Shown here: piece after piece, positions 59,152-61,698 of the stretch
Numbering within the stretch: position 1 is the first letter of the stretch
Layout of the letters: each line of letters opens with the position of its first letter
NCBI RefSeq assembly: GCF_002252665.1
Contig: NZ_NQKZ01000001.1
Coordinates: 124,001-188,000, forward strand
Direction of reading: 5' to 3'
Origin: Synechococcus sp. 8F6
GTDB taxonomy: Bacteria; Cyanobacteriota; Cyanobacteriia; PCC-6307; Cyanobiaceae
DNA length: 64,000 nt
Program-made: the position numbers and the translations under genes
The notes under the pieces: generated by a model
What the model saw: the letters and a program-made list of their open reading frames with translations, nothing else
Told to the model about the DNA's origin: nothing
The model's database searches: none

Positions 59152-60132
59152 TTAGGAGCTGAGCAGGAAACCGTCGCGAAAGGCGTCGCCGGCTTCGGTG
59201 CCGCGTTTGAGGGCGGCTTCGACATCGAGGAGCTGGCTGAGCAGGCGCAGGAAGACGGCGGGCTGGCGGCCGCGGATCTGTTTGCGCATCACGTAGATGC
59301 GTTTGGGGTTGCCAATGCCGGCGGCCTTGGCGATCACGGCCACGTCCTGCTCGCCGGCCCGCTCCAGCAGCGTCACCCAGAGCCAGCCGCGGATCTGACT
59401 GGTGAGGGCGGCCACGATGCGCAGGGCCGGTTCGTTGGCCTCCAGCAGGGCATCCAGCCGGGCGATGGCCTCGGCCGGCTGGCCCGCCAACAGCGCATCG
59501 CCCACCGCCAGGGCGCTGGTGCTCTGGCCGCCCACCAGGGCCTGCACGGCGGCCAGAGAGATCGGCGCGCCCGGTGTCGCGTAAAGGCTCAGCTTTTCGA
59601 GCTCACTGGCCAGGCGGGCGCTGTCGCTGCCCACGGCGTCGGCCAGGGCTTCGGCTGCGGCCGGCTCCAGCTTCAGCCCCAGCTCCTGGGCGGTGCGGCT
59701 CACCAGCTCCACCTGGCCGGCGCCGTCCCAGATGGCCGGCAGGGCAAAGCTCTGCTCGCTGGCCTCGCCGGCCTTCACCAGCTTCTGCAGGGCCTTGGTG
59801 GTGCGCAGGCGGGCGTCGGGTTTGCCGGGGCTGACCAGCAGCAGGTGGCAGCTGTCGGCCACCTGGGCCAGGGCCGCCTCAAAGCCTTCCGCCAGCTCGG
59901 CCGGGCACTGGCTGCAGAACGGGCTGCGCTGCAGCAGCACCACCCGGGCCCCGGCGCCGAAGGGGGGCGTGCGGGCTTCCTCCAGCGCCTGGGCCGCCTG
60001 GGCGCTGTCGTTGCCATCGAGGCGGCTCAGGTTGAGGCTGGCCCAGCTGGGATCGAGCTGCTCCTGCACCAGCGCCTCCACGGCACGGTTGCGGGCCGCC
60101 TCGTCGTCGCCCCAGAACAGGTGAATGGGCAT
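59152..60132 (-). CDS. holA: DNA polymerase III subunit delta
   Basis: The clamp-loader delta subunit, the wrench that opens the sliding clamp. The 326-aa product has MPIHLFWGDDEAARNRAVEALVQ, LLLVSPGKPDARLRTTKALQKL, a domain II helical region with SDSARLASELEKLSLYA, and a domain III with LRIVAALTSQIRGWLWV, QDVAVIAKAAGIGNPKRIYVMRKQIRG, which match cyanobacterial HolA. Walker motifs are absent, as expected for delta. ATG 60132 is used. It follows the toxin-antitoxin gene by 11 bp on the same strand and may be co-transcribed with it. Confidence 0.9.
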   Translation of the reverse strand: MPIHLFWGDDEAARNRAVEALVQEQLDPSWASLNLSRLDGNDSAQAAQALEEARTPPFGAGARVVLLQRSPFCSQCPAELAEGFEAALAQVADSCHLLLVSPGKPDARLRTTKALQKLVKAGEASEQSFALPAIWDGAGQVELVSRTAQELGLKLEPAAAEALADAVGSDSARLASELEKLSLYATPGAPISLAAVQALVGGQSTSALAVGDALLAGQPAEAIARLDALLEANEPALRIVAALTSQIRGWLWVTLLERAGEQDVAVIAKAAGIGNPKRIYVMRKQIRGRQPAVFLRLLSQLLDVEAALKRGTEAGDAFRDGFLLSS

Positions 60133-60143
60133 GGGGTGGGGGC

Positions 60144-60905
60144 TCAGAGGCGCAGGGCGGTGAGCACGGGGTGCTGGCCAGTTTGGGCCAGGGCGGGATG
60201 GTCGGTGACCAGCACCGTCGCATCGGTGTGGATGGCGGTGGCCAGTTCGATGGCGGCGCTGTCATCGAGCTGGGGCTCCTGGCGGCGCAAGCGCACGGCC
60301 GCTGCCGCAATGGCCGCATCGGCGGGCACCAGCTGCCAGTGCTGGGGGTTGTCGAACGCCTTGGCGTAGCGCTGGGCCAGGGCCTCGTCGCCTTGGGCCA
60401 GGGGCCCCTCGAGCACCCGGATCAGGCTCACGGCGCTCACGACCCCGATCCAGTAGCCCGCGGCGATGCCCTGCATCAGGGGTTGGAGATGCTTGCCGGC
60501 GTTCTTGGCATCTGCCAGGAACGCCACCAGGGCCGTGCCATCGAGGGCGATTCGCGAGCCCTGGGCCAGCAGCCGCGGATTGAAGGTGCGTTGCCCTGGA
60601 GCCTGAGGGCCGAGGTTTTGAACCGGCTGAACGAAGGCCGGTGGCGGTGGCGCCGGCCGCGCCGGGTGGCGCTGGTTGGGGTCCCAGCAGCCGCGGCCGC
60701 TGCCCTGCAGGGCCATCAGGCTCTGCACCTGCTGCTGGCGCCTGCGGGGATCGGTGGGTGCTCGCCCCGCCAGCGGCACCAGGGCGGCCATGGGGGTGCG
60801 ATGCCGCTGGATGACGAAGCGCTCGCCGGCGGCGGCCCGCTCCAGCAGTTCCGGGAGCCGGCGGCGAGCCTCCTCCACGCCCAGGGTTGTGTCGGGGTTG
60901 GTCAC
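60144..60905 (-). CDS. Single-gene fusion of a Phd/YefM-type antitoxin and a PIN-domain (VapC-like) toxin
   Basis: A 253-aa protein with two parts. Residues 7-48 (LGVEEARRRLPELLERAAAGERFVIQRHRTPMAALVPL) match the N-terminal DNA-binding fold of Phd/YefM antitoxins. Residues 118-250 match a PIN nuclease: D122 (IALDGTALVAFL), E166 (SLIRVLEG), D214/D215 (LDDSAAIELATAI) and D235 (LVTDHPAL), so the metal-binding acidic set is complete. A linker (52-115) is Arg/Gln/Pro-rich and holds LMALQGSGRGCWDP, like antitoxin tails. Antitoxin and toxin are normally separate overlapping genes; here there is no stop between them and one continuous frame. GTG 60905 is the start. A palindromic operator lies 36-60 bp upstream. 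Confidence 0.83.
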   Translation of the reverse strand: MTNPDTTLGVEEARRRLPELLERAAAGERFVIQRHRTPMAALVPLAGRAPTDPRRRQQQVQSLMALQGSGRGCWDPNQRHPARPAPPPPAFVQPVQNLGPQAPGQRTFNPRLLAQGSRIALDGTALVAFLADAKNAGKHLQPLMQGIAAGYWIGVVSAVSLIRVLEGPLAQGDEALAQRYAKAFDNPQHWQLVPADAAIAAAAVRLRRQEPQLDDSAAIELATAIHTDATVLVTDHPALAQTGQHPVLTALRL

Positions 60906-60940
60906 GGTGCTGCGGCGGGGTCGCCGCCGGGTGTGTGCCT

Positions 60941-60965
60941 AATTCTGTACAGGCTGTACAGAATT
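60941..60965. promoter_or_regulatory. Perfect 11-bp inverted repeat, likely operator of the toxin-antitoxin gene
   Basis: AATTCTGTACA (60941-60951) and TGTACAGAATT (60955-60965) are exact reverse complements separated by GGC. Each arm holds TGTACA, the core hexamer recognised by YefM-family antitoxins in the yefM-yoeB operator, with centres 9 bp apart here. It is AT-rich in a GC-rich setting and sits between the toxin-antitoxin gene (start 36 bp to the left) and cobH (start 56 bp to the right). Autoregulation is an inference; it could also affect cobH. Confidence 0.72.
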
Positions 60966-61020
60966 TAGGAGCGCTCGCGCCCACAGGGCACAACCTGGGC
61001 TGAGTTTGCTGCCGTTGTTC

Positions 61021-61698
61021 ATGCCCTCAGAAGGCGAGCAGGCGTTTGAGCAGGCCTTTGATCACCCGATCTTTCGCGAGAGCCTGCGGCTGATTTGGGA
61101 GCTGCCGGGGGTGGCGGCGGCCCTGGCTCCACTGACGCCCTTGCAGCAGGACGTGCTGTTGCGGCTGATCCACAGCAGCGGCGATCCGAGCCTGGTGGCC
61201 GAGCTGCGTTGGTCGCTGGGGGCTTGTGAGGCGGGGCTAGCAGCCTTGGCCGCCGGGGCGCCGATCCTTACCGACACGGCGATGGCGGCGGCGGCGGTGG
61301 CGCCAATGGCGCGGCGCACCTTCGGCCATCCGGTGCGCAGCGTGCTCGATTGGGCGCCGGATCAGGCGCCGGCGGGCTCCACGCGCACAGCGGCGGGCAT
61401 GGCCGCGGCCCTGGCGGAGCTGCAGCAGCCCGCGGTGGTGCTGATCGGCAGCGCGCCCACAGCCCTGGAGGTGTTGCTGGCACAGGGTGCAAAGCCGGCC
61501 CTGGTGATCGGCATGCCGGTGGGGTTTGTGGGGGTGGCGGAGAGCAAGCGTCACCTGGCTGCGAGTGGCCTGGCCCACATCCGGCTCGAGGGCTCCAAGG
61601 GCGGAGCCGGACTGGTGGCCGCGGCCTGCAACGCCCTGCTGCGGGCGGCCTGGCTTCAGGCGGCGAGCGCACCGTCTGCCCCGCCGGCTTCCTGCTGA
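61021..61698 (+). CDS. cobH: Precorrin-8X / cobalt-precorrin-8 methylmutase
   Basis: Moves the C-11 methyl group to C-12 to give hydrogenobyrinic or cobyrinic acid in B12 synthesis. The 225-aa product has [32 protein letters not shown] (a family signature with the metal/substrate region), [70 protein letters not shown]. The AESK and KGGSxxA-type ends match CobH/CbiC. ATG 61021 is chosen; a TTG at 61006 adds five residues. It is divergent from the toxin-antitoxin gene and overlaps mutS by 43 bp at its end. Confidence 0.92.

Follow-up and report, generated by a model that had tools for sequence, protein, structure and literature searches.

Proteins in which a toxin and its antitoxin are fused have mostly been treated as toxins that inhibit themselves, and the question raised by the present locus is whether this description fits a gene in which a Phd/YefM-type antitoxin part and a PIN-type toxin part are read as one chain. 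The window, the whole stretch of 64,000 nucleotides of Synechococcus sp. 8F6 DNA that was analysed, contains the following features around this gene. We take its neighbours to be cobH and holA; these labels, as well as those of ftsY, ribH, GNAT, and smpB below, were assigned by eye.

59152 to 60132, minus strand: holA (label by eye), the next gene downstream on the same strand.
60144 to 60905, minus strand: fusion gene (Phd/YefM-type antitoxin part, linker, and a half that looks like a pseudo-PIN), GTG start, 253 codons.
60156 to 60554, minus strand: PIN fold, residues 118-250, with quartet positions D122/R163/A217/H236 (PF01850, AlphaFold model, alignment).
60585 to 60677, minus strand: Pro-rich, low-confidence linker, residues 77-107 (pLDDT below 50 at 79-106; L214 compared by eye).
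60615 to 60635, minus strand: FVQPVQN-encoding stretch in the linker, a degenerate palindrome core in the window (by eye).
60693 to 60719, minus strand: antitoxin-tail motif LMALQGSGR, residues 63-71, conserved in the fusions and similar in split antitoxins.
60705 to 60890, minus strand: Phd/YefM-type DNA-binding part, residues 6-67 (PF02604; VapB46).
60938 to 60969, no strand: operator-like imperfect palindrome CCTAATTCTGTACAGGCTGTACAGAATTTAGG, core TGTACAGGCTGTACA at 60946-60960.
61006 to 61698, plus strand: divergent cobH/cbiC-like gene (label by eye), which has its operator region in common with the fusion gene.

The frame runs unbroken from 60905 to 60144 over 253 aa, as the first-pass annotation had claimed, and an assembly or frameshift artefact was rejected because the same fusion is present as an open frame in many further genomes. 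In a first survey, 33 of 197 relatives gave some match at E<=0.001, many of them to the Phd part alone. Among 400 genomes drawn from the family, the family profile matched in 119 at the same threshold, and 45 genomes of several genera carried an intact, near-full-length fusion as read from coverage and open-frame data. Ten more had broken or remnant copies (G265, G015, G241, G214, G275, G020, G272, G004, G001, and G011, the last consisting by eye of about the final 13 residues), and partial matches in G320 (48.7 bits) and G298 (25.6 bits) were left out of the fusion count. At all 29 of the loci L106-L134, the fusion is flanked by cobH and holA (neighbours by eye). The carriers are freshwater picocyanobacteria, and the fusion records are named as Cyanobium, Vulcanococcus, Synechococcus, and Synechococcaceae assemblies, and cultures of carriers may exist, several of the Cyanobium records having no metagenome-assembly label. 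In one assembly (probably G344), two contigs each carry a fusion copy next to holA (L200 and L201); the copies differ, and this metagenome assembly may be a mixture of two strains. The prospect raised beforehand that many relatives share the fusion and that it had already been described was correct in its first part only: relatives with it are many (45/400), but a search of open-licence papers found no description of a VapBC/Phd-PIN fusion family, and no such fusion appears in the part of a report on Synechococcus CB0101 that was consulted (PMC5498466).

Regarding the N-terminal half, PF02604 matched residues 6-67 of the window protein with 26.5 bits, which is 3.3 bits short of the gathering score of 29.8, and TIGR01552 gave 19 bits, under its cut-off of 20.8. 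PF02604 was matched by all 12 scanned family members at E<=0.1, the best at 2.2e-9, and the best solved relative of the 12-member family profile was the antitoxin VapB46 (6jqy, E 4.8e-5). The Phd part is followed by an LxGSGR motif, the L66, G68, and S69 of which are present in 30/30 fusions and R71 in 24/30. The Phd/YefM-like N-terminus and the antitoxin-tail-like sequence proposed from the letters alone are thus both borne out. As compared by eye with the two-gene relative L214, the linker occupies the place of the last ~15 residues of the split antitoxin, while the antitoxin's LRGSGRGCW is kept. The same linker holds a copy of the palindrome core in G005 and G006, and in G012 a copy with one core mismatch. 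PADLOC, run on the 12 family members, matched one of them to one unnamed model (E 0.033) and returned no further matches.

The PIN fold of the C-terminal half, also claimed by the first-pass annotation, was confirmed by PF01850 (residues 120-235, 25.9 bits, above the cut-off of 23.6), which only 8 of the 12 scanned members matched at E<=0.1, and by structure. The AlphaFold model has a mean pLDDT of 76.8, with ten-residue blocks at 81-95 over residues 111-240 and at 59 over 241-250; residues 61-70, by comparison, average 90, and residues 79-106 fall below 50. VIA-align placed the PIN part on VapC structures, the matches covering model residues 112-253 and the best being VapC15 (4chg_A, Z 14.2, rmsd 2.0 over 123 residues).

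The same annotation had assigned all four catalytic acids (D122, E166, D214/215, D235), and this assignment did not hold. With the register set by L018, the best-matching canonical VapC among the compared proteins (75 bits to the fusion PIN profile), the window protein has D122, R163, A217, and H236 at the four canonical VapC acid positions; E166, D214/215, and D235 were rejected as catalytic acids, standing 3, 2-3, and 1 residues out of this register. Over 30 fusions (29 loci plus L002), position 122 is D in 28 and E in 2; position 163 is R in 20, T in 4, E in 2, and G, Q, D, and H in one each, and is thus no longer E in 28/30; position 217, the third PIN acid, is D or E in 0/30; and position 236 is H in 16, D in 9, N in 4, and Q in one. 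Residue 220 is E in 28 and D in 2, and this acid is regarded as derived because Q stands there in L018 and the split relatives L214, L215, L216, L217, and L219 (by eye). The change from E to R at 163 combined with residue 220 suggests that a salt bridge between R163 and the acid at 220 replaced the metal site, and the toxin half looks catalytically dead, i.e. a pseudo-PIN.

These columns bear directly on one of two functions offered in advance, a self-inhibited nuclease, in which the PIN domain would be an active RNase kept in check by the LxGSGR tail, either that of its own chain or that of the partner in a dimer, and freed by proteolysis or another signal. The near-fixed acid at 122, an acid at 220 in every fusion, D236 in 9/30, and the conserved tail motif are compatible with this model, and EzeT provides a precedent for a cis-inhibited fusion (PMC4826407). 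However, the third acid is gone in 30/30 fusions, the second position is E or D in only 3/30, and the acid at 220 is derived, so that the proposal was not supported and is considered to be improbable.

The gene appears to descend from a two-gene module. In L214, from the cyanobacterium REEB417, the Phd-type part (82 codons) and a four-acid PIN part are two frames immediately next to holA, and a GTAC-type palindrome lies upstream of them. Proteobacterial and myxobacterial records (L215, L216, L217, and L219) likewise have two-frame relatives with four acids (acids by eye). With the antitoxin and a canonical PIN encoded by two genes at this position in L214, the fusion event probably took place on the spot, between cobH and holA. 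In an unrooted PIN tree of 29 fusions and six other proteins, one branch divides the groups with support of 100/99; several branches are long, and the details are unsure. A single fusion event in place followed by the loss of catalysis is the simplest history, and the in-frame fusion of an antitoxin and a toxin from a two-gene module, as proposed at the outset, is supported, the LxGSGR tail having been retained.

Both halves appear to have remained under selection. The dN/dS ratio was 0.10-0.47 for the PIN part (14 pairs) and 0-0.26 for the Phd part (13 of the 14 pairs gave a ratio), and that of the linker was often higher. Ratios well below 1 in both halves argue for a pseudo-PIN and against a pseudogene: the dead toxin half would still be constrained. 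A decaying, functionless toxin-antitoxin remnant would account for the genomes that keep only the PIN part or a C-terminal piece (G015, G004, G001, and, by eye, G011), and for the internal deletion in L221, the broken frame in L213, and the split frame in L017, but the intact frame in 45 of 400 genomes across several genera, values below 0.5 in both halves, and the conservation of the operator-like palindrome make this explanation very improbable indeed.

The palindrome between the divergent genes was absent from the first-pass annotation. Its core, TGTACAGGCTGTACA, lies ~40 bp before the gene and is the sole match with one mismatch or fewer in the 64-kb window, with 0 matches in 100 shuffles. 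The pattern YGTACR-N3-YGTACR occurs between cobH and the fusion gene exactly in 24/30 loci, with one mismatch or fewer in 29/30, and with two or fewer in 30/30, against 0.1%, 0.1%, and 3%, respectively, of 1,200 first-order resampled sequences. Three or four palindrome units with a 9-bp period are present at several of the loci. Scanning of this operator gave no sigma-70-like promoter match and no terminator-like match, and an intrinsic terminator was rejected on the latter ground; the flanks of a few dispersed palindromes, inspected by eye, had no T-run.

YefM and Axe, which are Phd/YefM-type antitoxins, bind paired TGTACA-core palindromes at the YefM-YoeB and Axe-Txe operators, and differ in a spacing of 12 bp centre to centre versus 9 bp here and in that dispersed copies are not mentioned in the part of the source consulted (PMC7730913). 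Given this common TGTACA core, the Phd part would, by analogy, most naturally be expected to regulate its own gene. We assign a probability of approximately two in three to the gene being a domesticated, catalytically dead VapBC fusion, the product of which would act as a sequence-specific DNA-binding autorepressor. Of the two functions offered by the first-pass annotation, a transcription factor that kept its PIN domain is accordingly the better fit, considering the operator-like palindrome, the lost acids, and dN/dS below 1. Points against the autorepressor reading are the absence of a sigma-70-like match at the operator, the PIN match in only 8 of 12 members, and the exceptions to the co-occurrence given below.

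Under this explanation, the antitoxin and toxin genes would have fused between cobH and holA in an ancestor of these Cyanobium-like bacteria, after which the PIN half would have lost its metal-binding acids and the product would have been retained for its sequence-specific DNA binding. TGTACA half-sites would be bound by the Phd half, the pseudo-PIN would probably serve as a dimer or tetramer scaffold locked 1:1 to the DNA-binding half, and autorepression may take place at the gene's own operator. With the two parts held at 1:1, the switch of ordinary modules, which depends on the toxin:antitoxin ratio, would be lost.

The palindrome is not confined to this operator. In the genome from which the window was taken (G000), the exact core is found at 9 positions, and at 17 if one mismatch is allowed, against 0 for the reversed control. 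A covariance model, built from 55 sites that were chosen by their core and applied at E<=0.01, found 22 places in G000, 20 in G006, 31 in G004, 5 in G103, 6 in G227, and 7 in G221, and 5 to 13 in each of six further fusion genomes. Among the 400 family genomes, the exact core was present in 46 (up to 11 copies) and the reversed control in 13 (one copy each).

These sites co-occur with the fusion. Independently of the model, at least two copies of the exact core were found in 34 of the 55 genomes with a fusion or remnant versus 3 of the 345 without. The model itself, scored on at most 16 candidates per genome with a site usually counting on both strands, gave matches in 52/55 versus 17/345; by class, these were 44/45 with an intact fusion, 8/10 with a broken or remnant copy, and 17/345 of the others. 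Within four genera, the corresponding proportions with and without a fusion or remnant were 12/12 versus 1/4, 15/16 versus 3/26, 17/17 versus 5/8, and 6/6 versus 1/7. At least four matches, which goes beyond the gene's own operator, were found in 44/55 versus 5/345 genomes, and by genus in 11/12 versus 0/4, 13/16 versus 0/26, 12/17 versus 3/8 (g10, not significant), and 6/6 versus 1/7, as judged by Fisher tests on related genomes that were not phylogeny-corrected.

Exceptions occur in both directions. G298, G333, and G362 are rich in elements and have no fusion by profile search, G333 being 84% and G362 68% complete; G385 lacks the fusion but has 5 exact cores; the exact core is missing from 11 of the 45 intact-fusion genomes; and G004, with a remnant only, has more places than G000 or G006. 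At the smpB locus, the element was present in 6/8 intact-fusion genomes of the genus (with one core mismatch in G014; absent in G005 and G013) and absent in 4/4 remnant or PIN-only and 4/4 fusion-free genomes, and only the remaining genomes count as a test, this locus having been chosen since G000, G007, and G008 had the element.

In the 55-site consensus, the core letters are nearly fixed, partly as a result of the core-based selection, and the outer arms are variable. These arms keep pairing while changing, with 81 double-changed cells versus 53.4 (sd 7.5) after shuffling and 0/500 shuffles as high. The consensus has no fixed GTAG/CGTC tag, which REPIN/RAYT-type repeats have at one end (PMC3733652). 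As placed by crude codon-based gene calls, the 17 core sites of G000 lie in 7 tandem gaps, 5 convergent gaps, and 2 divergent gaps (one being the gene's own operator), and 3 are inside called frames. Because only 2/17 are in divergent gaps, a promoter regulon is not favoured, these being too few for a test. In 4 of the 6 species compared by eye (G059, G100, G261, and G344), the variant at a genome's own operator is met again among the dispersed sites, such as TGTACGGCCTGTACA at both in G059 and CGTACGGACCGTACG and CGTACGGGCCGTACG in G100; in the other two, G290 and G250, it does not clearly recur.

Side observations were made on individual sites. In four genomes, a palindrome copy falls within a coding linker near the N-terminus of an ftsY-like frame (L089:2501, L055:2501, L070:2501, and L074:2501). 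At three g6 sites (L181:2287, L177:5656, and L193:2247), TGTACA-N3-TGTACA with a CAA/TTG spacer is framed by long arms of another sequence, roughly TTTCCAACC / GGTTGGAAA, and in g6 genomes (L174, L175, and L191), clusters of two to four sites spanning about 10 kb or less lie among vapBC-type gene pairs.

A separate two-gene Phd+PIN pair, flanked by ribH-like and GNAT-like genes, was found in two genomes without an intact fusion, at about 8480-9000 of L257 (G004) and about 1379-1920 of L105 (G015), with an upstream palindrome of the form TGTACA-NN-TGTACA; the ribH spot in G000 (L101) and G008 (L052) has the palindrome only and no such pair. Places spanning 42 nt instead of 43 make up 13/31 in G004, 1/22 in G000, and 2/20 in G006, and the shorter span in G004 suggests a 2-nt spacer, which was directly seen at one place. 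Since some elements in G004 and G015 have a 2-nt spacer like the operator of this other Phd+PIN pair, part of the palindrome family may belong to other Phd-type modules.

These findings give substance to a serious rival for the dispersed sites, to which we grant somewhat less than an even chance: the fusion represses only itself, and the dispersed palindromes are REPIN/SDR-like mobile or hairpin repeats or relic operators of lost Phd-type modules, their co-occurrence with the fusion being historical. It is compatible with the autorepressor part of the best explanation. The largely non-divergent placement in G000, the hairpin-like maintenance of arm pairing, the ribH spot with a Phd+PIN pair in G004/G015 versus the palindrome alone in G000/G008, the g6 sites among vapBC-type genes, and the abundance of elements in G004, which lacks an intact fusion, all agree with this rival, and REPINs are likewise tied to specific RAYT genes (PMC3116915). 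On the other hand, co-occurrence beyond the own operator is significant in three of the four genera, a fixed core with variable arms fits a protein-bound site (though the sites were chosen by their core), the dispersed sites of 4/6 species repeat the variant of the own operator (by eye), and no fixed tag is present.

The dispersed signal combined with the dead toxin half suggests that a former toxin system has been retired into a DNA-binding job. Judging from shared sequence and co-occurrence, the dispersed sites may be bound by the fusion protein, and any effect of such binding is likewise inferred. A more specific version of this idea, which we hold only tentatively and regard as rather unlikely, is that the protein bridges hairpin-forming copies of its operator as a form of genome punctuation or as a local nucleoid organiser in the manner of MatP or SlmA, proteins that serve as the comparison for a chromosome-wide binder. 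It would draw on the 5-22 places per genome in the 11 scored intact-fusion genomes, their over-representation near the gene in some Cyanobium, and co-evolution, the protein and its sites tending to be lost together.

With regard to the position of the sites, 17 of the 22 element places in G000 are on contigs C82 and C39, which make up about 22% of the genome, and the cumulative GC-skew minimum of G006 (20 samples) is near 2.3 Mb, with the fusion gene at 2.25 Mb. Sites within 100 kb of the gene number 19/30 in G004 (1.9 expected), 8/21 in G000 (p 1e-4), and, weakly, 4/18 in G006 (p 0.04), versus no significant excess within that distance in G103 (1/4), G227 (0/5), and G221 (2/7), the distances having been chosen after the data were seen. 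Since the excess is limited to the former three genomes, the idea of a macrodomain is only a lead.

Besides the antitoxins discussed above, several known systems resemble the fusion in part. PIN-PHD pairs are common as two genes, 285 being given in PMC2701414, and two-gene VapBC modules, such as L214 and those of the M. tuberculosis VapB46 and VapBC-5 structures, share the Phd-type part, an LRGSG-like tail, the PIN fold, and a GTAC-type palindrome upstream, L214 also occupying the same place beside holA; the window differs in having one gene, a Pro-rich linker in place of the tail end, and lost catalytic acids. The Phd-RelE fusion YB_293189 of Ralstonia eutropha similarly joins a Phd part to a toxin judged inactive, but its toxin is RelE, its antitoxin is also judged truncated, and its function is left open in the part of the source consulted (PMC4826407), whereas the present family has a PIN domain, is conserved across genera, and has a conserved operator-like palindrome. 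EzeT and the HicA-HicB fusion Slr1999 also place an antitoxin and a toxin in one chain (PMC4826407, PMC4963859); however, EzeT is an active kinase toxin quenched in cis (PMC4826407), and Slr1999 has no detectable fused homologue elsewhere according to the portion of PMC4963859 drawn on here. REPIN/RAYT systems resemble the dispersed sites in being extragenic palindromes with predicted hairpins that are linked to a dedicated gene, and differ in that this gene is a transposase (PMC3116915), whereas here it encodes a Phd-PIN protein and the palindromes have a TGTACA core.

Taken together, the course of domestication can be traced in this family, from two genes with an intact active site, at the same locus in L214, to fusions in which that site is dismantled, with remnants in several relatives. 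If the protein does bind the dispersed palindromes, a toxin-antitoxin operator would have been turned into a genome-wide family of sites, and what chromosomal toxin-antitoxin genes can be kept for, a question of long standing, would become directly testable in these bacteria.
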